This document shows, piece after piece, positions 18,362 through 33,032 of a stretch of 64,000 nt of DNA. The position numbers were made by a program, and so were the translations under genes. This stretch comes from Streptomyces sp. 11x1. GTDB lineage: Bacteria > Actinomycetota > Actinomycetes > Streptomycetales > Streptomycetaceae. Numbering within the stretch: the first letter of the stretch is position 1; every line of letters begins with the position of its first letter. Location: contig NZ_CP122458.1 of the NCBI RefSeq assembly GCF_032598905.1, positions 4,216,001-4,280,000 of the forward strand. Direction: 5' to 3'. The notes beneath the pieces are model-generated. The model was not told where the DNA came from. It saw nothing but the letters and a program-made list of their open reading frames with translations, and ran no database searches.

Positions 18362-19124
18362 GAGTACGACCTCCGCTGGTCCGGAGCCGGGATCTGGGCG
18401 CCCTTGTACTCGACGGGGATGCCGCCGAGGGGGTAGTCCTTGCGCTGCGGGAAGCCCTGCCAGTCGTCCGGCATCATGATCCGCGTCAGCGCGGGGTGGC
18501 CGTCGAAGACGATGCCGAAGAAGTCGTACGCCTCGCGCTCGTGCCAGTCGTTGGTCGGGTAGACGGGGACGAGCGACGGGATGTGCGGGTCGGCGTCCGG
18601 GGCGGAGACCTCCAGGCGGATCAGCCGGTTGTGGGTGATCGAGCGCAGGTGGTAGACGGCGTGCAGCTCGCGGCCCTTGTCGCCGGGGTAGTGGACGCCC
18701 GAGACGCCGGTGCACAGCTCGAAGCGGAGGGCCGGGTCGTCGCGGAGGGTGCGGGCGACGGTCGGCAGGTGCTCGCGCTCGATGTGGAAGGTGAGCTCGC
18801 CCCGGTCGACGACGGTCCTGTCGATCACGTTCTCGGGGACGAGGCCCTGTTCCTCCAGGGCGCCCTCCAGCTCGTCGGCGACCTCGTCGAACCAGCCGCC
18901 GTAGGGGCGGACGGCCTCCCCGGGGAGCCGGATGGAGCGCACCAGGCCGCCGTAGCCGGAGGTGTCGCCGCCGTTGTTCGCGCCGAACATGCCGCGCTGG
19001 ACGCGGATCTCCTCGCCGCCGTCGCCGCGCTGGCCGGGGAGGTTGGAGGCGGCGAGGTCCTTCTCCGGGTTCACCCCGTTCGAGCCGCCGGTGCCGTTCG
19101 CATCGTTATTGCCGTTCGCGTCGC

Positions 19125-19128
<4 letters not shown>
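18358..19128 (-). CDS. nuoC: NADH-quinone oxidoreductase subunit C
   Basis: A 256-residue subunit of the peripheral arm. The 30-kDa-subunit signature is seen as [16 protein letters not shown] and the downstream [11 protein letters not shown] segment. The first ~60 residues are an Asn/Gly-rich extension. The ATG overlaps the nuoB stop by 4 bp. Confidence 0.95.
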
Positions 19129-19679
<551 letters not shown>

Positions 19680-19693
19680 GGTCTAAAGGCCCC

Positions 19694-20053
19694 TCAGTCC
19701 CATTCCAGGCCGCCGCGGCGCCAGACGTACGCGTAGGCGACGAAGACGGTGAGCACGAAGAGCAGCATCTCCACGAGCCCGAAAACACCCAGGGCGTCGA
19801 AGGTGACGGCCCAGGGGTAGAGGAAGACGATCTCGATGTCGAAGACGATGAAGAGCATCGCCGTCAGGTAGTACTTGATGGGGAAACGCCCGCCGCCGGC
19901 CGGCGTGGGGGTGGGCTCGATCCCGCACTCGTAGGCCTCTAGCTTGGCCCGGTTGTAACGCTTCGGGCCGATCAGCGTGGCCATGATCACGGAGAAGATC
20001 GCAAAGCCTGCCCCGAGGGCTCCCAGTACGAGGATGGGCGCATAGGCGTTCAC
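19694..20053 (-). CDS. nuoA: NADH-quinone oxidoreductase subunit A
   Basis: A 119-residue subunit with three membrane helices. The conserved Cys-containing loop reads YECGIEPTP. It is the first gene of the operon. The GTG at 20053 follows a GAGGAGCG site. The leader upstream holds a Rex-like operator. Confidence 0.96.
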
Positions 20054-20161
20054 CGCTCCTCGCTCCTCTCAGTCGGCACTGACTGCTGGCGGATTGCGTC
20101 GGCCCTGCTCTCCGCCCCACCGGCCACACGAGCCCCGTCCGTCTCGACGAAGATCGCGAAC

Positions 20162-20179
20162 ATGTGAAGCAGGTCACAA
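20162..20179 (-). promoter_or_regulatory. Rex/CRP-like operator in the nuo leader
   Basis: The sequence aTGTGAAgcaggTCACAA is an inverted repeat, TGTGA-N6-TCACA. It lies 109-126 bp upstream of the nuoA start. It matches the outer half-sites of the Rex operator TTGTGAAC...TTCACAA at 12 of 18 positions, and it also fits the generic CRP TGTGA-N6-TCACA. Rex, the NADH/NAD+ sensor, controls respiratory genes in Streptomyces, which makes it the better candidate. Confidence 0.6.
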
Positions 20180-20194
20180 GCCCAACTGCCCCGC

Positions 20195-20200
20195 ATCCTA
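20195..20200 (-). promoter_or_regulatory. Candidate -10 box of the nuo promoter
   Basis: On the minus strand this reads TAGGAT, a good Streptomyces -10 hexamer. No convincing -35 lies 16-19 bp upstream. If used, transcription would start near 20188 and the Rex-like site would fall at about +9 to +26, where binding would block elongation or open-complex formation. Confidence 0.35.
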
Positions 20201-20797
20201 TGCCTGCCGGTCTGTGATCTGCGACACGGGTGCAGCACCGAGTTTGTGATCTCCACCACCTGACGAAGGATCATGAAGTCGGATGAGCGTCGATCTTCAT
20301 ACACGAAGCGCCAGACTGATCACCACAAGTGACATTTTCGCTCGTTACCGCTGGTCACGCAGGGCGTCTCCATATCAAGAGAGTTCCGCTGCATGCAAAT
20401 TGGTGTTGGACCGGGCCGCTTGATAGAGCCCGCGTTCACACCCCGGAGGGAGGTCCGATGACAGATGTGGACACGTGCACGCGTTCACGAGCGCCACAAG
20501 GGCGCCCTCCCGCGCGGGACGCCCCGGGAACGGGTGACCGTTCCGTGACCTGCGCCACATCGGACTGAGATCGAATCAACGGACCTTGGCCACTCGCTGC
20601 GATCAGTGGTAAGCGCAGGGCAATTCGGGCGTAATCACGAAAGCGCATGATCAAAGGCCTGTTCGACCATGTCCGCTATGCCCGTTACGGCGTCAATAAA
20701 GAGTGACGCGCGACGAATTCAGCGCCTCCATTGAACAACTGTGGCGCAGCACACGTTTCTTGTAGGTATGGAGGAGTCGCTGGTACCGCTTGTACCC

Positions 20798-21601
20798 ATG
20801 TCCCACACCGCTCACATACGCAGCCACCGGAAACCCCGCCGCAACGCGTCCTCGATCGCGATGCGCGCCGGAGTCGCCGGCGGCGTTCTCAGCACCGTGG
20901 CAGTGGCCGGCGCGTCCACGTCGGCCTTCGCGGCGGAGCCGGTGACGCAGACGCTCGAACTGCCCACCCTCACGGCCGACCTGGCCACGCAGGCCGCGCA
21001 GTCCGCGGACGCCACGAAGGTGATGGCGGCCGAGTACCAGCTGCAGGCCGAGCGTGACGCCGCCGCCCAGGAGGCGGCCAAGCAGGCCGACAAGGACCTC
21101 GCCAAGGCGAAGAAGGAAGAGGCCCGCAAGAAGGCCGCCGAGGAGGCCGAGCGCAAGGCCGCCGCCGAGCGCGCCTCGCGCGACACCGAGCGGGCCACCC
21201 TCTCGACCAACTCGGCGTCGACGACGACCACGACGGCGTCGGCCTCCGGCAGCGTCGGCACGGTCATCAGCTTCCTGAAGGCCCAGCTCGGCGACGCCTA
21301 CGTGCTGGGTGCCACGGGCCCCAACGCGTGGGACTGCTCCTCGCTCGTGCAGGCCGCCTTCAAGCAGGTCGGCGTGGACCTCCCCCGGGTCTCGCAGGAC
21401 CAGTCGATGCAGGGCACCGAGGTCTCGCTGTCGAACCTCCAGGTGGGCGACATCCTGTACTGGGGCGCGAAGGGCTCGGCCTACCACGTGGGTGTCTACG
21501 TCGGTAACGGCCAGTACCTCGACGCGGCGAACCCCTCCAAGGGCGTCGTCATCCAGGACCTCTCCGGCTACCCGGCGACGGGTGCGGTGCGCGTGCTCTG
21601 A
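20798..21601 (+). CDS. Secreted NlpC/P60 peptidoglycan endopeptidase
   Basis: A 267-residue exported cell-wall hydrolase. A signal peptide ends near residue 45 (AFA-A). Residues ~60-130 form an Ala/Lys/Glu-rich coiled coil, as in RipA-type hydrolases. The C-terminal NlpC/P60 domain has the catalytic Cys170 in DCSSL and His230 in AYHVGVYVG. The start is uncertain: ATG 20798 gives a clean signal peptide, while ATG 20768 would add ten residues. A GGAGGAG sits between the two. It is transcribed divergently from nuo. Confidence 0.88.
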   Translation: MSHTAHIRSHRKPRRNASSIAMRAGVAGGVLSTVAVAGASTSAFAAEPVTQTLELPTLTADLATQAAQSADATKVMAAEYQLQAERDAAAQEAAKQADKDLAKAKKEEARKKAAEEAERKAAAERASRDTERATLSTNSASTTTTTASASGSVGTVISFLKAQLGDAYVLGATGPNAWDCSSLVQAAFKQVGVDLPRVSQDQSMQGTEVSLSNLQVGDILYWGAKGSAYHVGVYVGNGQYLDAANPSKGVVIQDLSGYPATGAVRVL

Positions 21602-21629
21602 CCCGCGCGGTCGCCCAGGGCGTTTTCGA

Positions 21630-21662
21630 AGGGCCGCTCTCCCCGTGGGGGACAGCGGCCCT
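21630..21662 (+). terminator. Hairpin terminator after the NlpC/P60 gene
   Basis: AGGGCCGCT (21630-21638) pairs with AGCGGCCCT (21654-21662), and an inner TCCCC/GGGGA stem closes a 3-nt loop. It lies 28 bp past the stop codon. Confidence 0.65.
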
Positions 21663-21771
21663 CGGGCTGCCCGCACAAAGGCCACAGGCGCCCCACAGGG
21701 CGCCTGTCGTCCCGCACTTGTGGTGTACCGCACCCCGGGGCGGCAGTGAGCCTCTCAGGGGCGTACAGCGC

Positions 21772-21809
21772 GTTCGGCCGGCCACGGGGCACTCCGTGGC
21801 CGGCCGAAC
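21772..21809. terminator. Long perfect inverted repeat between convergent genes
   Basis: A perfect 16-bp stem, GTTCGGCCGGCCACGG against CCGTGGCCGGCCGAAC, encloses a 6-nt loop. It lies between the NlpC/P60 gene and the convergent flavoprotein gene, so it probably works as a bidirectional terminator. Confidence 0.7.
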
Positions 21810-21851
21810 ACGGTCATACGCGGCGGTACGGGGCATACACCCCGGGGCGGG

Positions 21852-23144
21852 TCACGCCTTCGGGGCCACCTTGCTCAGGCCGTTGATGATGCGGTCCATC
21901 GCGTCGCCGCCGGTGGGGTCGGTGAGGTTCGCCAGCATCTTCAGGGTGAACTTCATCAGCAGCGGATGGGTCAGGCCCCGCTGGGTGGCGAGCTTCATGA
22001 TCTTCGGGTTGCCGATGAGCTTCACGAAGGCGCGGCCCATCGTGTAGTAGCCGCCGAAGGTGTCCTTGAGGACCTGCGGGTAGCGCTGGAGGGCGAGTTC
22101 ACGCTGCCCGGGGGTGGCGCGGGCGTGGGCCTGGACGATGACCTCGGCGGCGATCTGGCCGGATTCCATCGCGTAGGCGATGCCCTCGCCGTTGAACGGG
22201 TTCACCATGCCGCCGGCGTCGCCGACCAGCAGCAGGCCCTTGGTGTAGTGGGGTTGGCGGTTGAAGGCCATCGGGAGGGCGGCGCCGCGGATGGGGCCGG
22301 TCATGTTCTCGGGGGTGTAGCCCCACTCCTCCGGCATGGACGCGCACCAGGCCTTCAGGACGTCGCGCCAGTCCAGCTCCTTGAAGGCGGACGAGGTGTT
22401 GAGGACGCCCAGGCCGACGTTGGACGTGCCATCGCCCATGCCGAAGATCCAGCCGTAGCCGGGGAGCAGACGGTCCTCGCCCGGACCGCGCTTGTCCCAC
22501 AGCTCCAGCCAGGACTCCAGGTAGTCGTCGTCGTGGCGCGGGGAGGTGAAGTACGTGCGGACCGCGACGCCCATCGGACGGTCCTCCCGGCGATGCAGTC
22601 CCATCGCGAGGGAGAGCCGGGTGGAGTTGCCGTCGGCCGCCACCACCAGCGGGGCGTGGAAGGTGACTTCGCGCTTCTCGTCGCCGAGCTTGGCGTGCAC
22701 CCCGGTGATCCGGCCCGTGCGGTCGTCGACGATCGGCGCGCCCACGTTGCAGCGCTCGTACAGCCGGGCACCCGCCTTCTGGGCCTGGCGGGCGAGCTGC
22801 TCGTCGAAGTCGTCGCGCTTGCGGACGAGTCCGTAGTTCGGGTAGGCGGCGAGATCAGGCCAGTCGAGCTGGAGGCGGACGCCGCCGCCGATGATCCGCA
22901 GCCCCTTGTTGCGGAGCCAGCCGGCCTCCTCGGAGATGTCGATGCCCATCGCGACCAGCTGTTTGGTGGCGCGCGGGGTGAGGCCGTCGCCGCAGACCTT
23001 CTCCCTCGGGAAGCTGGTCTTCTCCAGGAGCAGCACGTCGAGCCCGGCCTTCGCCAGGTAGTACGCGGTGGTGGAACCGGCTGGCCCGGCCCCGACGACG
23101 ATCACATCGGCGGTGTGTTCGGTAAGGGGCTGGGGCTCGGTCAC
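21852..23144 (-). CDS. Geranylgeranyl reductase family FAD oxidoreductase (MenJ-like candidate)
   Basis: A 430-residue flavoprotein. The N-terminal Rossmann motif is VVGAGPAGSTTAYYLAKAG (Gly18-Gly23). The family motif FPREKVCGDGLTPRA follows, and a second FAD motif reads LLVGDAGGMVNPFNGEGI. The GTG at 23144 has a GGGGAGAA site. The family reduces isoprenoid double bonds. In Mycobacterium the homologue MenJ saturates one unit of the menaquinone tail and lies near menG. Streptomyces make partly hydrogenated MK-9, so a menaquinone role is likely here but inferred from context. Confidence 0.85.
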   Translation of the reverse strand: MTEPQPLTEHTADVIVVGAGPAGSTTAYYLAKAGLDVLLLEKTSFPREKVCGDGLTPRATKQLVAMGIDISEEAGWLRNKGLRIIGGGVRLQLDWPDLAAYPNYGLVRKRDDFDEQLARQAQKAGARLYERCNVGAPIVDDRTGRITGVHAKLGDEKREVTFHAPLVVAADGNSTRLSLAMGLHRREDRPMGVAVRTYFTSPRHDDDYLESWLELWDKRGPGEDRLLPGYGWIFGMGDGTSNVGLGVLNTSSAFKELDWRDVLKAWCASMPEEWGYTPENMTGPIRGAALPMAFNRQPHYTKGLLLVGDAGGMVNPFNGEGIAYAMESGQIAAEVIVQAHARATPGQRELALQRYPQVLKDTFGGYYTMGRAFVKLIGNPKIMKLATQRGLTHPLLMKFTLKMLANLTDPTGGDAMDRIINGLSKVAPKA

Positions 23145-23290
23145 GACGGGTTCTCCCCAAGAAGTAGATGGATCGGAGCAAAGCCTGCCGGACGTCCGGG
23201 GCGCCGGACGGCCGGAAAACATGTGCCGACCGGGGTCGGACATGGGCAGTCTATTCAGCGGTACCGATCATCGGCTGAAGGGCTGCCCCT

Positions 23291-23797
23291 GTGAACCGAG
23301 CTCTGCCCGACGTACGGCTGCGTGTCCCCACCGACGAGGACGCCTTCGCCTGGCACCGGATCTTCGACGATCCCGACGTCATGGAGTTCCACGGCGGCCG
23401 GTCCGCCGAGCTGTCCGTCTACGAGGAGCTCACCGCGCGCCAGCGCCGCCACGACGCCGAGCACGGGTTCTGTCTGTGGACCCTGCTCGACGAGGAGGGC
23501 CGGGCCATCGGCTTCACCGGTGCCCAGCCGTGGCCCCGGGAGTGGGGCCCGGCCGGCGAGATCGAGATCGGCTGGCGGCTCGCCCGCGACCACTGGGGCA
23601 AGGGCTATGTGACCGCCGCCGCGCTCCAGACCCTGGAGCGGGTGCGGGCGGCCGGTGTGGGCCGGGTGGTCGCCATGGTCGACGCCCGCAACGAGCGGTC
23701 CATCGCCGTCACCCGGCGGCTGGGCATGGAACTGGCGGAGACGTTCACCACGCCCGTGTCGCAGCGGGCGGGACACTGCTACCGACTGACGCTCTAG
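23291..23797 (+). CDS. GNAT acetyltransferase (RimJ/RimL type)
   Basis: A 168-residue GNAT. The acetyl-CoA motif A is in WRLARDHWGKGYVTAAAL (about residues 97-114), and the C-terminal NERSIAVTRRLGM segment is typical of the RimJ/RimL group. The GTG start follows an AAGGG site. It is divergent from the flavoprotein gene. The substrate is unknown. Confidence 0.85.
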   Translation: MNRALPDVRLRVPTDEDAFAWHRIFDDPDVMEFHGGRSAELSVYEELTARQRRHDAEHGFCLWTLLDEEGRAIGFTGAQPWPREWGPAGEIEIGWRLARDHWGKGYVTAAALQTLERVRAAGVGRVVAMVDARNERSIAVTRRLGMELAETFTTPVSQRAGHCYRLTL

Positions 23798-23812
23798 CGG
23801 TCCGACGGTTCA

Positions 23813-23827
23813 GGACCACGGTGGTCC
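23813..23827. repeat. Short inverted repeat
   Basis: GGACCAC-G-GTGGTCC lies 16 bp after the acetyltransferase stop, next to three GGCGGTTC-like direct repeats. It may form a terminator stem. Confidence 0.35.
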
Positions 23828-23966
23828 GGCGGTTCAAGGACTCCGGCGGTTCGGGATTTCGACAACTCGTCACTCAGCGTAGCGATTTGCCGCAGATTGC
23901 CACGCAGTGCTTCCGAGCGGGGGCGCCCGGCGGTTACCCTGCCGGTACCGCTGGGGGTGAACATCT

Positions 23967-24290
23967 GTGCGCATGACACCCAAGTCATCCGAAGTGCGTG
24001 TGCCACGGTTCGTCGGGCTGATGGCCGTGGACGCGCGCGAGACGGCCGAGGCGGGCGGGGTGCTCCTCGTCGCGCCCGACCGCCCCGACTTCCCACGCAC
24101 CGTCGTGGACCACGTCGTACGCCAGTACCCGCCACCGGGGGTGCAGGTGCCGCGCGGCGCCGCCGTGACCGTGTGGTTCGAGCCGGGGGACGACGGCGGG
24201 GGTGTGCGGGAGCCCCGGCGCGGTGGGCCTCCGCCAGGGTTGCGCAGGGCGCTGGACGAGCCGGGGGACCCGTTCGCGGTGCTCCGCTAG
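23967..24290 (+). CDS. Small PASTA-domain protein
   Basis: A 107-residue protein with one PASTA-like module: VPRFVGLMAVDARETAEAGG, then DHVVRQYPPPGVQVPRGAAVTVWF (family pattern V-x-G-x3-xA, P-x-G, G-x-V-x-V). There is no signal peptide or membrane helix. The GTG at 23967 has a GGGGGTGA site 6 nt upstream; an ATG lies two codons in. Such cytoplasmic single-PASTA proteins are common in Streptomyces, with no defined function. Confidence 0.65.
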   Translation: MRMTPKSSEVRVPRFVGLMAVDARETAEAGGVLLVAPDRPDFPRTVVDHVVRQYPPPGVQVPRGAAVTVWFEPGDDGGGVREPRRGGPPPGLRRALDEPGDPFAVLR

Positions 24291-24322
24291 CTCGACGGGC
24301 GCCCGGTCCGGTGTTCCGCCTC

Positions 24323-24670
24323 CTACCTCTGCCAGAGCAGGATCGCCGCCGCCCCTCCCCCGCCGATCACGAAGGCCGCCGCGATGGTGAGGGCCCAGAT
24401 CAGCGCGCGGCTGCGGGACTTGGGCGGCTCGGCGGGCGGCAGGTGGTGTTGGCCCATTTCCACGAGCGGAGGTTCGTAGGGGGCTGGCGTCGGCGCGGGG
24501 GCCTGCTGCGGGAGCCCGGGCTGTGCCGAAGGCGCCAAGACCATCGGGGAGGGCGGGGGCGTCCCGGGTGGCGCGGTCGAGGGGACCGGCACCCGTACGC
24601 GTCCGCACTCCATGCAGAAGCGCTCCTCGTCAGGGCCTGGTGTCCCGCAGTGCGGGCAGCAGGACGTCAT
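24323..24670 (-). CDS. Zinc-ribbon membrane-anchored protein
   Basis: A 115-residue protein. The N-terminal zinc ribbon has CPHCG and CMECG. A Pro-rich linker (about residues 28-80) follows, and one membrane helix lies near the C-terminus (ALIWALTIAAAFVIGGGG). The ATG at 24670 has an AAGGAACGG site. That upstream part, and the first 41 bp of the gene, are shared with the 3' end of the TnpB-like ORF, so the mobile element appears to abut this gene's start. The function is not known. Confidence 0.7.
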   Translation of the reverse strand: MTSCCPHCGTPGPDEERFCMECGRVRVPVPSTAPPGTPPPSPMVLAPSAQPGLPQQAPAPTPAPYEPPLVEMGQHHLPPAEPPKSRSRALIWALTIAAAFVIGGGGAAAILLWQR

Positions 24671-26312
24671 GGAACCGTTCCTTGGGACTGAGCGGGAGTG
24701 AGTCCTGTTGCCAGGTCTCATGCTCGGCCGAACGCCCCGGACGGTGTTGGGCGTTCTGGTTGCCCGCGTTCGCTCCGCGTCCGGGCGGCACGGATCGTGT
24801 CCGTGGTCCGGGAATGCGGGGGCGGGTTTCCTCACGCCCGGGAACACCTGGTCGGGCCTGGACGGTCCGATGCCCCACCGCATCGCTCCGGTGCTGTGGG
24901 GGCGGTGCCGTCCGTCGCCGGACCGGGTGTTGCTGGGCGCGCCTTCCGATCGCCACGGCGGCAGCCTCGTGGCGAGTGGTCCTACGTGTCGTGGTGGTGA
25001 GGGGCTTCTGCCAGTGCTGGGCGCCCCCCTTCGAGGTGTAGGCCGGGTCGACGGCGATAACCGAGATACCCGTCTGAGCCGCCATCGAGGCCAGCCGGGC
25101 GCGGAGTCTGCCGGTGGGCATGCCGGAGATCAGTCGGCGAAAGCGGGTGCGGCGGCCGTGTTTCTCCCGGGTCTTCTCGGCGGTGAAGTCCAGGTCCTCG
25201 ACCGCGATCGCCTTCACACCGCAGGCGCGGGCCCAGTGCAGGAGGCGGGTGAGGGCGTGGCGGACCTGGGCGTCACGGTGCTGGGCGGTGCCGGTCAGGT
25301 CGTAGGAGAAGCGGCGCGGGGCGCCGGTGGGGTTGCCGTGAGCGTCCAGGCGCCAGGCGGCCAGGTGGTCGGCGTTCATGTCGACGCCGACCACCCCGTG
25401 GGCGAGCGCGGCCTCGATAGGAAGGGCGCGGGTGGGCGGGATCTGCCAGGACGCCGTCAGATACCAGCGGTCCCGGCCGGTGTCGTAGTGAATGCGGTAG
25501 GCGATCGCCCGGTTGGTTTCGACGCGATCCGCCCAATCACCGCCCCGGTGCGCGAACGCGACCCGGCTCGCAAGGACGTACCGGCCGTGCGGGGCGTTCG
25601 CCAGATGGGCCAGCGGGGCGGGCAGCTTGATACTCACCTCACCCTCGGGGCTGACGCGGATCGTCTCGTTGCCGTAGCGCTTGCCGGACTCCCCGTCCGC
25701 CTGGCAGAACCAGCGCTCCGCCTCCCACCGCCCACGCCACGCGGACTCGCTCAGCCCGGCCGCCTCCAGGTGATGCAGGGTACGGGCCAGGCGCTTGCCG
25801 CCGCGCACCACGCGCACGATGCCAGCCTCCCGGTCGGCCCTCGCGGCGGCCAGCCGGTCCCGCAGCACCCGCAGCCGCCGCGACTTCGCATGCCACTCCC
25901 GCCGCGACCGGTAACCCCCCGGCGCCTTCCGCGTCCCCTTCTGCCCGACCGGCAGCGCCAGCCGGTCCTCGATGGTGCGGATACCGGCTTCCAGGGTGTG
26001 GATGTGTGCGAGCTGGCCACGGCGGGCCAGCGCCCACTGCTCATGCGTGGCCTTGGTGATACTGCCCGCCCACCGCGACGACGACAACGGCGTCAGCTCC
26101 CGCTTACGCACCGCCCACGCCTGAGCGCAGTGGTCCACGCCGTCGCGGCAGCGCGCCTTGAGATCCCGCGAAGCCAGCGCCCCCAGATGCCCGCCCACCA
26201 CGCGCAGCACCTTCTCGTCCCCGGTCGACAGGCCTTTGAGACGGGTCCGGACGGCCGCACCAGACGGGCCGGACACGACAAACGGCGCCGCGATGCTCCG
26301 CAGCTCACCCAC
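24630..26312 (-). mobile_element. TnpB-like (IS200/IS605 OrfB-related) RuvC-fold protein
   Basis: About 560 residues from a GTG at 26312; the frame is open to 26465. It belongs to a Streptomyces TnpB-related family. RuvC-I Asp311 lies in GVVGVDMNADH and RuvC-II Glu372 in AIAVEDLDF. The third acidic position falls in TRHEAAAVAIG, where Glu449 (GAG at 24966-24968) stands where relatives I recall have Asp. The CxxC zinc ribbon normally found between RuvC-II and RuvC-III is absent. A Pro/Arg-rich tail of ~100 residues follows. No TnpA is nearby. It could be an RNA-guided nuclease, or an inactivated derivative. Confidence 0.75.
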
Positions 26313-26663
26313 CCCGCCACCCCCGCCCCGGCTCGAAGAACCCCTTGCCCTGGGAAACGAGCACCGTCCATGAAGGTCACGTATTCGATGAGAGAACGTC
26401 AGTTCCCACCGGAAACCGGCATCACAAGCAAGGAGCGCGGCACGACACAGGCCACCCACACTCACTCCAGCTCACCAGAATGCTCTTGAATGCACTCCAA
26501 CTTCACCAGGCAAACCCCCGCCGTCAGATATCACCGGTGCGTACCAATGTCCGACGGACGGTGATTACTCTTGGCCGGTTCCCGTCAACAGGATTCTCCG
26601 GCCGACGACCCTCGTGCGGGTGAACTCCGCTTCCGGCGGCCGGACTTCATCCCCGTGCGGCCC
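26313..26663. other. Left flank of the TnpB-like element
   Basis: 351 bp between the TnpB-like start and the menG stop. It is locally less GC-rich than its surroundings (26370-26580), consistent with element-end or transferred DNA. Short repeats of CACTCCA(G/A)CT(C/T) occur near 26463 and 26492. No gene is seen. The exact element boundary cannot be fixed without relatives. Confidence 0.4.
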
Positions 26664-27362
26664 CTACGCCTGGGCCTTGAACCCCCGGTGCAACGCGACG
26701 ATGCCGCCCGAGAGGTTGCGCCACGCGACCTTCTCCCAGCCGGCCTTGCCGAGGCGCTCGGCGAGACCCGCCTGGTCGGGCCAGGCGCGGATGGACTCGG
26801 CGAGATAGACGTACGCGTCCGGGTTGGAGGACACCGCGCGGGCGACCGGCGGCAGCGCGCGCATCAGGTACTCGGTGTAGACGGTGCGGAACGGCGTCCA
26901 GGTGGGGTGGGAGAACTCGCAGATCACGACGCGGCCGCCGGGCTTCGTCACCCGGTACAGCTCGCGCAGCGCGGTGTCGGTGTCCTGCACGTTGCGCAGG
27001 CCGAAGGAGATGGTGACCGCGTCGAAGGTGTCGTCCTTGAACGGCAGCCTCGTGGCGTCGCCCGCGGTGAACGGCAGCCAGGACAGGCGCTCCTTGCCGA
27101 CCTGGAGCATGCCGAGGGAGAAGTCGCACGGCACGACGTACGCGCCGGTCTGCGCGAAGGGCAGTGAGGAGGTGCCGGTGCCGGCGGCGAGGTCCAGGAC
27201 CTTCTGCGCGGGGCGGGCGTCGACGGCCCGCGCGACCTCCTTGCGCCAGCGCCGGTCCTGTCCGAGGGACAGCACGTCGTTGGTCAGGTCGTACCGTTTC
27301 GCCACTCGGTCGAACATCGAGGCGACTTCGTGCGGCTGCTTGTCCAGGGATGCGCGGGTCAC
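26664..27362 (-). CDS. menG: Demethylmenaquinone methyltransferase
   Basis: A 232-residue SAM-dependent C-methyltransferase (UbiE/MenG) that makes menaquinone from demethylmenaquinone, the last ring step. Motif I reads [12 protein letters not shown] (about 55-66). Family signatures are [18 protein letters not shown] near the N-terminus and [14 protein letters not shown] in the middle. The GTG at 27362 gives the usual length; the frame continues upstream without homology. It lies between the quinone-related flavoprotein and mqnC. Confidence 0.93.
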
Positions 27363-27532
27363 GGGCCCATTGTGGCAGTACGGGCCGGGCGCCGGTGCGG
27401 CGCCTGGCGCGACGCCCGGAGTCGTCGACGAAGACGGACTCGGCGGTGGGATTTTCGTTGGCGGACTCGGATTGCATTCCCGGGACCGAAGAACCACACA
27501 TGCGGCACATGCGCCTCTGCTTCATTGCCTTC

Positions 27533-28561
27533 ATGAGCACCGTGAGGAATTCCCTGAAACCGGCCGTCGGACTGCTGTGTCTGGTGACCCTGGCCTGCGC
27601 GGGCTGCACGACGGACACCCGGGAGGCGGCGACGGGGGCGGCCGCGTCCACCGCGACGACGACGCCCACGGTGCCCACCACCTCCGCGCCGTCCACGGCC
27701 TACGCGCCGTACGTGAACGCGACCGAGGCCTCCGACCTCGACGACGCCGGGTCGGCCGCCGCGTACAACCTGGCGTTCGTGATCGCCGACGGTGACGCGT
27801 GCACGCCGATGTGGAACGGCACCGACGCGATCGACGACACGGCGGTGAAGTCCCGTGTCTCGGTGCTCACCGGCGCGGGGGCGTCGGTGCGGGTCTCGTT
27901 CGGCGGTGCCTCGGGCACGGAGCTGGCACAGGCCTGCGACAGCGCGACCGAACTCGCCGAGGCGTACGGCGCGGCGCTCGACGCGGCCGGCTCGACCCAG
28001 GCGGACTTCGACGTCGAGGGCGACGCGTTGCAGGACTCCGACTCCGTCGCCCTGCGCTCCGCGGCGATCGCGCTCCTCCAAATGGACCGCCCCGACCTCT
28101 CCGTCTCCTTCACCCTCCCCGTCATGCCGTCCGGCCTCGACGACGACGGTCTGGCCCTGCTGAACTCGGCCAACGACCACGCCGTCCAGGTCGGCACGGT
28201 CAACATCATGACCATGAACTACGCCAGTTCGTACGACGGTGACATGGGCGACTACGCGGAACAGGCGGCCGAGGCGACGCACGAGCAGCTGATGGACGTC
28301 TTCGGCACGAGCGCGTCGACGGCGTGGCGGGCGTTGGCGTTGACCTCGATGCTGGGCGTCAATGACGTCGACGACGAGACGTTCACGCTGGAGGACGCGG
28401 CGCAGGTGCGGGAGTTCGCGGAGGAGAAGGGCATCGCCTGGGTGTCGATGTGGGCGACGTTCCGGGACCGGGAGTGCGGGGACGGGGCGAGTGACGCACT
28501 GGTCGACTGCAGCGGGGTCGATCAGGCGGACGGGGCGTTCGGGGAGGCGTTCTCGGGCTGA
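27533..28561 (+). CDS. GH18-like (chitinase-fold) lipoprotein
   Basis: A 342-residue exported protein. A lipoprotein signal precedes a Cys in ACAGC. A Thr/Pro-rich spacer follows, then a TIM-barrel GH18-like domain with TQADFDVEG (the DxDxE catalytic pattern, Glu in place), a SFGG strand and VNIMTMNY. These features match actinobacterial chitinase-like proteins. The start is uncertain: ATG 27500, 27509 or 27533 all lack a strong ribosome site, and 27533 gives the cleanest signal peptide. Substrate unproven. Confidence 0.75.
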   Translation: MSTVRNSLKPAVGLLCLVTLACAGCTTDTREAATGAAASTATTTPTVPTTSAPSTAYAPYVNATEASDLDDAGSAAAYNLAFVIADGDACTPMWNGTDAIDDTAVKSRVSVLTGAGASVRVSFGGASGTELAQACDSATELAEAYGAALDAAGSTQADFDVEGDALQDSDSVALRSAAIALLQMDRPDLSVSFTLPVMPSGLDDDGLALLNSANDHAVQVGTVNIMTMNYASSYDGDMGDYAEQAAEATHEQLMDVFGTSASTAWRALALTSMLGVNDVDDETFTLEDAAQVREFAEEKGIAWVSMWATFRDRECGDGASDALVDCSGVDQADGAFGEAFSG

Positions 28562-28580
28562 GCGGGCGCGGCGTCGCCCC

Positions 28581-29030
28581 TCAGCGGCGACGGTGGACCA
28601 GGCGCCCCGCGCACACCGTGGCCGTGCAGACGCCTGCCCCGTCGTAGACCGCCAGGTCGGCGCGGCCCGCCTCGGCGAGCACCGGAGGCGCCGGGTGCGG
28701 CAGTATCGAGACGTGGTTGCGCTCGGCGGCCGACCGGAGTTCCGGGGTGTTCGCGTGCTGTCGCAGGATCGCCACCGCGCCCGACTTCAGCACCGCGTGG
28801 ACCTGTTCGCGGGGCGAGGGGGCGTCCGGGAGCGGGCCCTCGTGCACCCGGCCGGGCCCGAGGACGCCGGACCACTGGCGGACGCGGGCGCCCGGGAACC
28901 GCAGGCGGAGGTCCTCCGCCGGGCCCACCGCCCGGACCCGGGTGCCGTCCACCACGACGGCGCCGTCCTTGATCGGCTCCGGGTCGTCCCAGGTGCGCCG
29001 CACCTCGTCGGCGGCGTGCATCGTCAGCAA
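28581..29030 (-). CDS. Amidohydrolase-like (imidazolonepropionase-like) short protein
   Basis: A 149-residue protein resembling the small beta-sandwich part of amidohydrolases such as imidazolonepropionase: IKDGAVVVDGTRVRAVG at the N-terminus and GRADLAVYDGAGVCTATVCAGRLV at the end. The metal-binding TIM barrel (HxH motif) is missing between them. It starts 8 bp after the mqnC stop, so it is probably co-translated. Its constant place behind mqnC, if confirmed elsewhere, would suggest a link to futalosine metabolism. No catalytic role is evident. Confidence 0.65.
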   Translation of the reverse strand: MLTMHAADEVRRTWDDPEPIKDGAVVVDGTRVRAVGPAEDLRLRFPGARVRQWSGVLGPGRVHEGPLPDAPSPREQVHAVLKSGAVAILRQHANTPELRSAAERNHVSILPHPAPPVLAEAGRADLAVYDGAGVCTATVCAGRLVHRRR

Positions 29031-29038
29031 GGCCGAAC

Positions 29039-30238
29039 CTAGTTGGAGGCGAGGATCTTCAGCTCGGGGTGCGCCGTGCCGCCCTCGATCGCCGTGGAGG
29101 AGATGTGGGACATCACGCGCGCGTCGACGGGGTCGTTCGCCGGGTCGTCGTGGACGACGAGGTGCTCGTACGTCGTGGAGCGCTGGGCCGGGACCCGCCC
29201 CGCCGTACGGATCATGTCGATCATTTCCTGGAGGTTGGAGCGGTGCTTGGCACCGGCCGCCGAGACGACGTTCTCCTCCAGCATGACCGAGCCGAGGTCG
29301 TCCGCGCCGTAGTGCAGCGTCAGCTGGCCCGCGTCCTGGCCGGTGGTCAGCCAGGAGCCCTGGATGTGGGCGATGTTGTCCATGAAGAGCCGGGAGATCG
29401 CGATCATCCGCAGGTACTCGAAGATCGTGGCCTGGGTGCGGCCCTTCAGATGGTTGTTCATCGGCTGGTAGAGGTACGGGATGAAGGCCCGGAAGCCGCC
29501 TGTGCGGTCCTGGACGTCACGGATCATCCGCAGGTGCTCGATGCGCTCGGCGTTGGTCTCGCCGGTGCCCATGAGCATGGTCGAGGTGGACTCCACGCCC
29601 AGGTTGTGCGCGGTCTCCATGATCTCCAGCCAGCGCTCGCCGGACTCCTTGAGGGGGGCGATGGCCTTGCGGGGCCGCTCGGGCAGCAGCTCCGCGCCCG
29701 CGCCCGCGAAGGAGTCGAGACCGGCGGCGTGGATCCGCTGGATCGCCTCCTCGACGCCCACCTTGGAGATCCGGGCCATGTGCTCGACCTCGGACGCGCC
29801 GAGGGAGTGGATGACCAGCTGGGGGAAGGCCTTCTTGATCGCGGCGAAGTGCGTCTCGTAGTACTCCACCCCGTAGTCCGGGTGGTGGCCGCCCTGGAAC
29901 ATGATCTGCGTACCGCCCAGCTCGACGGTCTCCGCGCAGCGGCGCAGGATGTCGTCGAGATCGCGCGTCCAGCCCTTGTCCTTGGCCTTCGGCGGGGCGT
30001 AGAACGCGCAGAACTTGCACGCCGTGACGCACACGTTCGTGTAGTTGATGTTCCGCTCGATGATGTACGTCGCGATGTGCTCCGTGCCCGCGTACCGGCG
30101 CTTGCGTACGGCGTCGGCGGCGGCGCCGAGCGCGTGCAGCGGGGCGTCGCGGTAGAGGGCGAGCGCCTCCTCCGGCGTGATTCTCCCGCCCTCGGCGGCA
30201 CGGTCGAGAACGGACTGGAGATCGGCCTTCTCGGTCAC
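29039..30238 (-). CDS. mqnC: Cyclic dehypoxanthinyl futalosine synthase
   Basis: A 399-residue radical SAM enzyme of the futalosine route. It cyclises dehypoxanthine futalosine. The 4Fe-4S motif CxxxCxxC is CVTACKFC (Cys70, 74, 77). The following segments (KDKGWTRDLDDIL, GGHHPDYGVEYY, TMLMGTGETNAER) match MqnC rather than MqnE. It starts at ATG 30238 and is coupled to the amidohydrolase-like gene. Confidence 0.94.
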   Translation of the reverse strand: MTEKADLQSVLDRAAEGGRITPEEALALYRDAPLHALGAAADAVRKRRYAGTEHIATYIIERNINYTNVCVTACKFCAFYAPPKAKDKGWTRDLDDILRRCAETVELGGTQIMFQGGHHPDYGVEYYETHFAAIKKAFPQLVIHSLGASEVEHMARISKVGVEEAIQRIHAAGLDSFAGAGAELLPERPRKAIAPLKESGERWLEIMETAHNLGVESTSTMLMGTGETNAERIEHLRMIRDVQDRTGGFRAFIPYLYQPMNNHLKGRTQATIFEYLRMIAISRLFMDNIAHIQGSWLTTGQDAGQLTLHYGADDLGSVMLEENVVSAAGAKHRSNLQEMIDMIRTAGRVPAQRSTTYEHLVVHDDPANDPVDARVMSHISSTAIEGGTAHPELKILASN

Positions 30239-30338
30239 CGGGGGCGTCCCTTTCGTAAGGGTTGAACTGACCGGGCCAGCCTACGCCAGGGGCTCTGACC
30301 GGCCGACGTCAGGCCGTCCGCCTGTGGACAACTTCGCG

Positions 30339-31091
30339 TCAGGCCGCGTACGACTCCAGCAGGAGGCCGACGTACGCTCCCGCGATCATGAACGGGCCCA
30401 GCGCCACCAGTTGGCGGCGTACGGCGCGGCGCCTGGCCAGCGCGACCACCGTGTACGCGCTGCCGATGAGCGCACCGGCGAACGTGCCGAGGTACAGCGC
30501 GCCCCAGCCGTACCAGCCGAGGACGGCGCCGAGGCCGAGGGCCAGCTTCACGTCGCCGAAGCCGAGGGCCATGGGTCTGATGAGGAAGAAGAGGAAGTAC
30601 AGGCCGCCGAGGGCGAGGGCGCCGTACAGCGCCGTGCGCCACTGGCCGGCGTGCTCGGGTACGAGGGCGACCGCGCCCAGGAGGGTGAGCGCGAGCGCCG
30701 CGAAGGGGAGGGTCAGGGGGTCCGGGAGGCGTTGGGCGCCGAGGTCCACGAGGGTGAGGAGCACGCCGAGGGGGGCGAGGAGCAGCCATACGGCGAGTTC
30801 GGGGCGGGTGCCGGTGGTCAGGGCGAGGGTGGCGCAGATCAGGGCGGTGGTGAGGGCGACGGGGGGTGTGCGCGGGCCGTAGGAGCAGGTGGGGGGTGCG
30901 GTGCAGCGGGCGGGGCCCAGCCAGCCGTTCGCCGGGCCGGTGATGTGGTGGCCGGCGGGGCAGGTGCGGTGCCAGGGGTGGTCCTCGTCGACCGTGAAGC
31001 GGTAGGCGGGGCGGGGGAGGAGGGTGCCGGTGGCTGCGCCCCAGAGTGCGGCGGCCAGGGTGAGTGCGATCAGCCAGGGGTCCAGTGCCAC
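30339..31091 (-). CDS. Type IV prepilin peptidase (A24 family)
   Basis: A 250-residue polytopic membrane aspartyl protease. The two catalytic Asp are in LVDLGAQRLPD and GFGDVKLALG (GxGD). The N-terminal part has Cys residues but not the canonical methyltransferase CxxC pairs. In Streptomyces such proteins process prepilin-like or Tad-type pseudopilins. No pilin genes lie in the window. Confidence 0.88.
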   Translation of the reverse strand: MALDPWLIALTLAAALWGAATGTLLPRPAYRFTVDEDHPWHRTCPAGHHITGPANGWLGPARCTAPPTCSYGPRTPPVALTTALICATLALTTGTRPELAVWLLLAPLGVLLTLVDLGAQRLPDPLTLPFAALALTLLGAVALVPEHAGQWRTALYGALALGGLYFLFFLIRPMALGFGDVKLALGLGAVLGWYGWGALYLGTFAGALIGSAYTVVALARRRAVRRQLVALGPFMIAGAYVGLLLESYAA

Positions 31092-31218
31092 GGGGGCAGC
31101 CTAGAGGGATCTCGCCCCCGCCGCCCCTACCCGTCCCTCCCCCACTCTCGGCTTCGCTCGAGCGGGAGGTGCCCCCACCCAGGGGCTGCGCCCCTTCGAC
31201 CCCCACACGTCCGCCCGG

Positions 31219-31338
31219 TGGGGGCTGGTCGCGCAGTTCCCCACGCCCCTCAAAAGGCAGGGGCTGCGCCCCGTGCCTTTTGCCCCTGAGGGCCGGAGGC
31301 CCGACAGGGGCGCGGGGAACTGCGCGAGAAGCCCCACT
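31219..31338. repeat. Streptomyces intergenic palindromic repeat, copy 1
   Basis: Two long arms face each other. The left arm is GTGGGGGCTGGTCGCGCAG followed by TTCCCCACGCCCCT; the right arm is AGGGGCGCGGGGAACTGCG followed by CGAGAAGCCCCAC. Between them is a second GGGGCTGCGCCCC palindrome. It fills the gap between two minus-strand genes. Copies or single arms recur at 36469, 47328 and 54201. Confidence 0.75.
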
Positions 31339-31367
31339 CAGCCGCAGCCAAAAGCCGGCCCCTCACT

Positions 31368-33032
31368 TCACCTTTTCGTCTTTGCCAGGCGGGCCGTCGG
31401 GTCGCCCGCGTCCGCGTTGTCCGCGGTGTACTGGAGTTCGTCGCCCACGGGGGTGAGCGTGACCTCGTGGGTGTTGCTGGTGCAGGTCTTGGGGTTGTTC
31501 TTCGCGTCGGCGATGCTCGTGACGACGACGTGGTCCTCGGTGACCTTCTTGAGGACGAACGTGTCGTCGCAGGCCCCGCCCAGCAGGTCGACGGAGCGGA
31601 ACGTGCCCAACCGGTCGCCGACGGAGCCCTGTTCGAGAGTGATGGTGAAGGTGCCCGCCGGGAGGTTGCCGCCGAGGGCGTAGCCGTCGCCCTCCCACGT
31701 GCCCAGGTACTTCTTGGGCAGGTCGCCCGCCCCGTCCTGCGGTTCCGGGTCCTTGTTCCCCTCGCTCGGGCTGCTGCCGGCCGAGGGGGCCTTGCCGGCC
31801 GCCTCTTCGCCCTTCTCGTCGCCGTTCAGCATGTTCAGCCCGAACACCAGACCTAGGCCCACCACCGCGAACGCGCCCGCGACGGCCAGGGCGACCGAGC
31901 AACTCACCCGTCGGCCCCGCCCGTTCGCCGTGGTCGTGGACGCCGCCGCCACACTCAGCGACAGCTTGCCCGGCGGTGGGACCGTGTCCGCCGACGCGGA
32001 GTCGGTCCGCTGCCCCGGCACGTGGGTCACGGGCGGCGACATCACCGGAGGCGGGCCGAACACCCCACTCGCGGACGGGGCTTCGACGCCGACCGACGGG
32101 CTGCTGAACTCCACCGGTCCGGACGGGACTTCCTCCGCCGCGTCCAGGTTCAGGAGGTGCACCGCGCTGCGGCCGACCTGTTCCACCAGGGGGCCCGGCA
32201 GCCAGCCCGCCGCCACCAGCGGGGCCGCGCCCTGGGGAGCCAGCATGCGGGCGACCTCGTCGGGGGCCGGGCGCGCGGCGGGGTCCTTGGACAGGCAGCG
32301 CTCCACGAGGGCGCGCAGGTCGCCCTCCACGCCGTCGAGCCGGGGTTCCTCGTGGACGACCTTGTAGAGGAGGGCGGCCGAGGAGTCACCGGGGAACGGG
32401 GACTGGCCGGTCGCGGCGTACGCGAGGACCGCGCCGAGGGAGAAGACGTCCGCCGCGCCGGTGATGCCCTTGCCGAGGATCTGCTCGGGGGACATGTAGC
32501 CGGGGGAGCCGATCGAGACGCCCGTCGAGGTCAGGGACGCCGTGCCGTCCGTGGCGCGGGCGATGCCGAAGTCGATGAGGAGGGGGCCGTCGACCGTGAG
32601 CAGGACGTTCGACGGCTTCACGTCCCGGTGGACCAGGTCCAGCGCGTGCACCGCCGACAGCGCTTCCGCCAGGCCCGCGCCCAGGACCCGTACGGAGTGG
32701 GGAGGCAGGGCACCGCCGTCCGTCACCGCCGTCGCCAGTGAGGGACCGGCCGCGTAGCCCGTCGCCACCCAGGGGACCGACGCCTCCGGGTCCGCGTCCA
32801 GGACGGGGGCGGTCCAGGCTCCGCCCACCCGGCGGGCGGCGTCGACCTCCCGCCGGAAGCGGGCACGGAACTCCTCGTCGAGGGCGAAGTGCGGGTGCAC
32901 GACCTTGACGGCGACGGTACGGCCGCCCGCGCTCCGCCCCAGATAGACGCGGCCCATCCCGCCCGCCCCGAGCCGGCCGAGCAGCCGGTAGGGCCCCACG
33001 ACCGTGGGTTCGCCGACATCGAGCGGTCGCAT
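31368..33032 (-). CDS. Eukaryotic-type Ser/Thr protein kinase, membrane-anchored
   Basis: A 554-residue Hanks-type kinase. Gly-loop GAGGMGRV (22-29), Lys43, HRDVKPSN (Asp137) and DFG (154-156) are all intact, so it should be active. A Pro-rich linker leads to one membrane helix (about 378-402). An external domain of ~130 residues follows, starting YLGTWEGDGYALGG, with two Cys that could form a disulfide and a lipocalin-like beta pattern. The ATG at 33032 has GGGAGGTG. The sensed ligand is unknown. Confidence 0.92.
   Translation of the reverse strand: MRPLDVGEPTVVGPYRLLGRLGAGGMGRVYLGRSAGGRTVAVKVVHPHFALDEEFRARFRREVDAARRVGGAWTAPVLDADPEASVPWVATGYAAGPSLATAVTDGGALPPHSVRVLGAGLAEALSAVHALDLVHRDVKPSNVLLTVDGPLLIDFGIARATDGTASLTSTGVSIGSPGYMSPEQILGKGITGAADVFSLGAVLAYAATGQSPFPGDSSAALLYKVVHEEPRLDGVEGDLRALVERCLSKDPAARPAPDEVARMLAPQGAAPLVAAGWLPGPLVEQVGRSAVHLLNLDAAEEVPSGPVEFSSPSVGVEAPSASGVFGPPPVMSPPVTHVPGQRTDSASADTVPPPGKLSLSVAAASTTTANGRGRRVSCSVALAVAGAFAVVGLGLVFGLNMLNGDEKGEEAAGKAPSAGSSPSEGNKDPEPQDGAGDLPKKYLGTWEGDGYALGGNLPAGTFTITLEQGSVGDRLGTFRSVDLLGGACDDTFVLKKVTEDHVVVTSIADAKNNPKTCTSNTHEVTLTPVGDELQYTADNADAGDPTARLAKTKR

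Follow-up and report, generated by a model that had tools for sequence, protein, structure and literature searches.

The question raised by this locus is whether a TnpB-like protein that has no zinc ribbon, and a Glu where an Asp was expected at the third RuvC position, is a divergent RNA-guided nuclease or a nuclease-dead, TldR-like repressor. The gene lies in a window of 64,000 nucleotides from Streptomyces sp. 11x1 (the whole stretch of DNA that was analysed), in which a sequence-only reading had marked the open reading frame (ORF) and had proposed both functions. The ORF is real, being located on the minus strand and encoding 560 amino acids (Table 1). Based on the present data, we consider it probable that it belongs to a non-autonomous IS607-type element made up of a solo tnpB and an omega RNA, and that its product represents a TnpB lineage with a D-E-H triad and without a zinc ribbon.

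Table 1. Features of the solo-tnpB element and its surroundings, in window coordinates
Feature	Position	Strand	Basis or remark
Whole solo-tnpB IS607-type element	24674..26516	minus	empty site in L112, shared right end and left-end consensus
Core GGT copies	26516-26514 (left), 24676-24674 (right)	minus	
Non-coding left end preceding the ORF	26313..26513	minus	
TnpB-family ORF, 560 aa	24630..26312	minus	GTG at 26312 to stop at 24630
RuvC-I Asp311 codon (GVDMN)	25380..25382	minus	D in 317/318
RuvC-II Glu372 codon (VEDLDF)	25197..25199	minus	E in 317/318
Gly429 codon	25026..25028	minus	W in 316/316 other copies compared (W429G here)
His448 codon, proposed third RuvC ligand, canonical-Asp position	24969..24971	minus	H in 316/318
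Glu449 codon (RHEAAAVAIG)	24966..24968	minus	flagged by the sequence-only reading
Omega RNA (reRNA) scaffold, overlapping the ORF 3' end	24674..24950	minus	codon-position test, covariation; 5' limit approximate
Internal pseudoknot arm ACCGTCC	24739..24745	minus	341/356 cells paired over 51 rows
Terminal pseudoknot arm GAACGGT	24674..24680	minus	last bases are the recombination core
Predicted 20-nt guide from host flank	24654..24673	minus	position directly after right end
Host gene, zinc-ribbon and membrane-segment protein	24323..24670	minus	predicted start ATG 24670

A TnpB-family protein without a zinc ribbon

The ORF product scored 33.3 bits against TIGR01766, which is above the cut-off of 32, and 53.7 bits against NF040570, which is below the cut-off of 100; its match to a Cas12f-like domain was under the Pfam cut-off. 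In a protein database search, 5771 of the 8000 candidates scored had E-values of at most 0.001, and among the 120 matches listed the named species was almost always a Streptomyces and the usual label 'TnpB-related protein' or 'transposase'. A PDB search with the single sequence gave no match up to E 1 (Cas12f included), a PDB search by profile gave weak matches (best E 0.038), and the defence-system models gave weak matches to Cas12f and nothing else. The predicted fold, taken from a model of middling quality (pLDDT 69.5, pTM 0.54), resembles Cas12f/TnpB folds according to its structure matches. When the family was compared by profile with 14 zinc-ribbon TnpBs, a probability of 97 and an E-value of 2.9e-11 were obtained, the alignment being confident only to about residue 438, short of RuvC-III. 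The RuvC-I Asp and the RuvC-II Glu that characterize the RuvC-like fold of the TnpB superfamily are both present, as had been claimed.

Also in agreement with the earlier claim, the stretch of the window protein that separates RuvC-II from RuvC-III is free of Cys, and the C4 zinc ribbon of the superfamily is absent. To place this in a wider context, 318 aligned sequences were inspected, a set that holds the window copy twice (P0001 and P0002) and some other genes twice, with 307 sequences unique over residues 3-444. The segment contains no Cys in 300 of the 318 and a single one in 18, so that no CxxC pair is possible in any of them, and CxxC was likewise found in 0 of the 120 proteins of a second family. 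Since the ribbon is missing from all relatives examined, the lack characterizes the lineage and is not peculiar to the window copy. PMC3627910 describes the motif as strictly conserved, but PMC10711439 attributes it to 'many', not all, TnpBs. For ISDra2 TnpB, PMC10097598 gives a zinc finger (C331/C334/C351/C354) and the triad D191-E278-D361.

The third RuvC ligand

The sequence-only reading had taken Glu449 as the third acidic position. The stretch RHEAAAVAIG with Glu449 is indeed present, but the conserved column is the preceding one: residue 448 is His in 316 of the 318 sequences, while residue 449 is D in 271, E in 41, H in 4, N in 1 and A in 1, which argues that column 449 is not the conserved catalytic column. 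His occupies position 449 in L051, L060, L071 and L074, and Ala in L069. In a tree of 307 sequences, residue 449 switches repeatedly, with 25 separate E-only clades. Glu is thus a recurrent state among relatives, as the reading had allowed, although Asp is far more frequent. Purifying selection is similar across the D, E and H copies (dN/dS of 0.232 for 21 EE pairs and 0.220 for 130 DD pairs). A 77-row alignment that reaches down to 17% identity has 17 invariant columns, D311, E372 and H448 among them. In wider relatives, H448 is found in all 53 rows that have a letter at this position, and residue 449 is H in 5 of them and Q in 1. In the second family of 120 proteins, the equivalent of 449 is E in 109, Q in 9 and N in 1, with a His directly before it in 118.

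To locate the canonical Asp, the flanking residues were scored with the catalytic position itself omitted. Placing this Asp on H448 gave +0.54; the second-best register scored −4.33 and the 449 register −16.45. Because the flanking residues place the canonical Asp on His448, the RuvC triad is best read from these sequences as D311-E372-H448, with His448 the more likely third ligand. Such a triad brings to mind RuvC resolvases and Cas9, which also have a His. The possibility that another residue supplies the third ligand had been raised with an Asp in mind; the neighbouring His, which had not been considered, is the more likely one. In either register, the third catalytic Asp of RuvC-III is missing from the window protein, the residue being His448 or Glu449.

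We regard it as rather unlikely that residue 449 is the ligand after all, in which case H448 would be conserved for some other reason and the family would be a D-E-D/E nuclease with occasional dead H, N or A copies. The presence of D or E in 312 of the 318 sequences fits this idea, as does a structural alignment with ISFba1 TnpB, in which extrapolation from the end points puts the canonical Asp (D371, according to PMC11061315) on 449 and not on 448, provided that the last helix is ungapped. Conversely, it is at odds with the H and Q residues of wider relatives that all retain H448, with the Q and N residues that accompany a nearly constant preceding His in the second family, and with the rejection of the 449 register by the flanking residues.

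A predicted omega RNA at the 3' end of the ORF

A Pro/Arg-rich tail of about 100 residues had been described as part of the protein. The tail exists, but it behaves as an omega RNA scaffold and not as a protein domain, as judged from the collapse of codon bias after residue 455 together with covariation in the RNA. The ratio of differences at third codon positions to the mean of those at first and second positions was 2.3-5.5 up to residue 455 and 0.9-1.8 thereafter in 18 close copies, and 2.1-3.2 followed by 0.8-1.7 in all 78 copies; 5 broken loci, L001 (the window copy) and L004 had been left out before the codon and state counts. In an alignment of 51 right ends, 97.0% of the cells of the RNA structure were paired, compared to a mean of 90.0% after shuffling and 43.2 for the best slid version. 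Double-changed cells numbered 253 against a shuffled mean of 84, a level reached by 0 of 500 shuffles, and the count of pair types was not significant (64 against 60.9 in shuffles, reached by 46 of 500). By these two tests, the locus has a predicted right-end omega RNA with a flank-derived guide, as is characteristic of the TnpB superfamily.

Next to the guide, a pseudoknot is predicted in which the terminal GAACGGT pairs with ACCGTTC further inside the RNA; over 51 rows, 341 of the 356 cells are paired. Its weak pair, 225/286, is broken in the window copy and in 12 other rows, and one row (L019) restores it by a compensating change. RNAalifold paired columns 12-15 with columns 288-291, which competes with the pseudoknot. 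The 51-row alignment includes the four copies with His449, and their RNA structure is retained. A covariance model covering the first 118 nt, for which 31 of the 51 rows were dropped, matched L145 (E 1.8e-10) and L142 (E 9.5e-8), in both of which the protein shares about 45% identity; it gave no match in L141, L144, L148 and L149, and in L143 only one with an E-value of 0.45. The region is terminated by GGAACGG in all 5 far relatives printed. The 20-mer that starts one base before the predicted guide matched the own genome within 2 mismatches at its own locus alone.

An Rfam scan of positions 19000-32000 gave one sub-threshold chance match (MIR5387), and a tRNA-Gln called by ARAGORN on the plus strand (24723-24813), opposite the omega RNA, is probably a false call from complementary RNA stems. 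Elsewhere in the genome, L004 (1510-1858) is a 5'-truncated relic of the right end (349 bp, 95% identical); its scaffold is intact and is followed by a guide from its own flank. It could be an orphan guide RNA that is used in trans.

Element ends and insertion site

The element measures 1840 bp counting one core (about 1.84 kb). DNA alignments with relatives break off at its right end in 63 of 83 loci, at query position 2927 or 2928, which corresponds to window position 24674 or 24673 (manual table count). Most of the 20 copies printed end in TAGGAACGGT on the right, followed by a variable base. The left end is GGGTTTGG-like and is preceded by variable DNA. Wherever the left end was clear (33 loci), it starts with GGG, a number that is partly built in because the search pattern requires GGG; a G directly precedes it in 23 of the 33.

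A search over 295 genomes revealed an empty orthologous site, ATCTGACGACGGGGGTTCGATGACG, in a related genome (L112), whereas the window junctions read ATCTGACGGCGGGGGTT on the left and GGTTCCATGACG on the right. From this comparison it follows that the element is mobile and that it inserted precisely into a GG(T) core and duplicated no target sequence; L112 is the one exact case, and there is a second, related site for L003, the autonomous relative. An empty-site search with the downstream flank in 41 relatives returned short chance matches alone outside the own genome. In L046 and L064 the right end occurs in tandem, next to runs of N, and these repeats look like assembly artefacts. The 89% identical copy in the own genome (L002) and a copy in S. 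caniscabiei (L008) are flanked on both sides by almost the same DNA; the two therefore share an insertion site.

Affiliation with IS607

The own genome contains four matches to the element, namely the window copy, the 89% copy L002, the 69% copy L003 and the right-end fragment L004. In L003, an ORF of 199 amino acids lies upstream of tnpB and overlaps it by a few bases. Its predicted product matches a resolvase domain (PF00239, E 4e-17) and, weakly, a helix-turn-helix, the combination that makes up an IS607 TnpA, a serine transposase. A serine TnpA was found in 3 of 84 loci (L003, L044 and L016), most of which are therefore solo tnpB loci, and TnpA-type ORFs are also found in the far relatives L143, L145 and L149. 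No transposase ORF adjoins the window tnpB in the ORF listing for 20000-31000, as had been noted, and the window copy is accordingly at most a non-autonomous IS607 derivative. Matches to Y1 TnpA occur at two places in the own genome, both far from the window. A second, partial serine TnpA match in this genome (C1:7358936-7359547, 48% identical) adjoins a TnpB-profile match.

The unoccupied sites for L003, found in relatives, read AGGGGT followed by TGGTGAGC (L229) and AGGGGC followed by TGGTGAGC (L215), and its junctions are AGGGGT on the left and GGT followed by TGGTGAGC on the right. For ISXfa1, PMC10711439 gives GGG as the TAM and places the crossover at GG dinucleotides, and it assigns one base of the right flank to the RNA scaffold; PMC11061315 gives AGGAG or GAGGG as TAM for other IS607 TnpBs. 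The ends of the window element and of L003 fit the ISXfa1 features. According to the same two reports, the present lineage shares with ISXfa1 and ISFba1 the serine TnpA (here found in relatives), the GG core, a G-rich TAM-like left flank and a right-end RNA with a flank guide. It differs in the missing zinc ribbon, the His at or beside the third ligand, the long REC region, a scaffold that overlaps about 90 ORF codons, and the prevalence of solo tnpB loci. ISDra2 TnpB (IS200/IS605) likewise has a split RuvC and a right-end RNA, but it is accompanied by a Y1 TnpA, unlike the serine TnpA of the window relatives. Cas12f proteins, in contrast to the window element, are CRISPR effectors.

Nuclease, repressor or decaying copy

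The TnpB profile matches, the predicted Cas12f/TnpB-like fold, the covarying scaffold and the invariant D311 and E372 make an RNA-guided nuclease with a noncanonical triad the likeliest interpretation, in line with the first of the two functions proposed at the outset. The second proposal, a nuclease-dead, TldR-like RNA-guided repressor, now appears improbable. TldRs are a TnpB-derived type with noncanonical RuvC residues like those seen here, and the missing zinc ribbon and the lack of an adjoining transposase point in the same direction; moreover, Cas12m is described in PMC11013384 as binding without cutting even in D-E-D proteins. Cas12m also resembles the window protein in having a His in a noncanonical triad, but this His replaces the first Asp (H-D-D) and the zinc finger is kept (PMC10442227 and PMC11013384). 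D311 and E372 are kept and are invariant in the 77-row alignment, the third RuvC residue being the noncanonical one, and copies with E are under the same purifying selection as copies with D. TldRs are moreover domesticated beside non-transposon genes and nuclease dead (PMC13418256), whereas the window copy, judged by its DNA context, resides in a mobile element with intact-looking ends that exclude the neighbouring genes. Its predicted guide comes from its own flank instead of addressing a promoter, and within 2 mismatches the 20-mer described above matches the own genome at this site alone.

A different issue is whether the window copy is still functional. The relatives encode 543 residues, and their usual TAG stop is AAG in the window copy, so that the last 17 residues of the 560 are read-through, partly into host DNA. 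This lost stop, the W429G substitution at a position where 316 of 316 other copies have W, and a left end that has drifted from the consensus are what one would expect if the element is active in general but this copy of it is inactive and decaying. On the other hand, 560 codons are still in open frame, and the protein departs from near-invariant columns at 2 of 219 positions, exactly the median for the 121 sequences in which such departures were counted. We consider decay a serious possibility, albeit with somewhat less than even chances; W429G and the lost stop may have impaired the copy.

Proposed mechanism and implications

In the explanation favoured here, the element carries tnpB and, overlapping its 3' end, the omega RNA scaffold, and nothing else. 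A serine transposase would have mobilised it in trans at GG(T) sites. The scaffold, together with about 20 nt of host DNA from the right flank, would guide TnpB to an empty copy of the site, where the target would adjoin a G-rich, GGG-like TAM, and cleavage followed by repair would keep or restore the element. Asp311, Glu372 and presumably His448 would be catalytic, residue 449 (Glu here) being a tolerated neighbour. For the lineage as a whole, we find it about evenly balanced whether a large group of IS607-type TnpBs has lost the zinc ribbon, has exchanged the third Asp for an invariant His with 449 varying freely (D/E/H/Q), and still acts as a nuclease or nickase.

If true, two TnpB hallmarks, the D-E-D triad and the zinc ribbon, would be dispensable in an abundant natural lineage, and one-residue swaps among natural D, E and H neighbours could directly test what the third ligand and the zinc ribbon do. 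A verdict of 'dead' that is read from a single column can be misleading for a TnpB, and an unusually long tail on a TnpB ORF may be guide RNA. The interest rests in the lineage more than in the window copy. No description of this Streptomyces lineage or of any D-E-H TnpB was found in the literature searched, the coverage of which was partial, and no priority is claimed.

The downstream host gene

The insertion point lies 3 nt before the predicted start of the host zinc-ribbon gene, and the region around ATG 24670 corresponds to the orthologous start region in L112-L116. The element has displaced the gene's own G-rich ribosome-binding stretch. As read from the sequence, its right end brings an AAGGA 8 nt before ATG 24670, and the host gene may now be expressed from the transcript of the element by means of this AAGGA.
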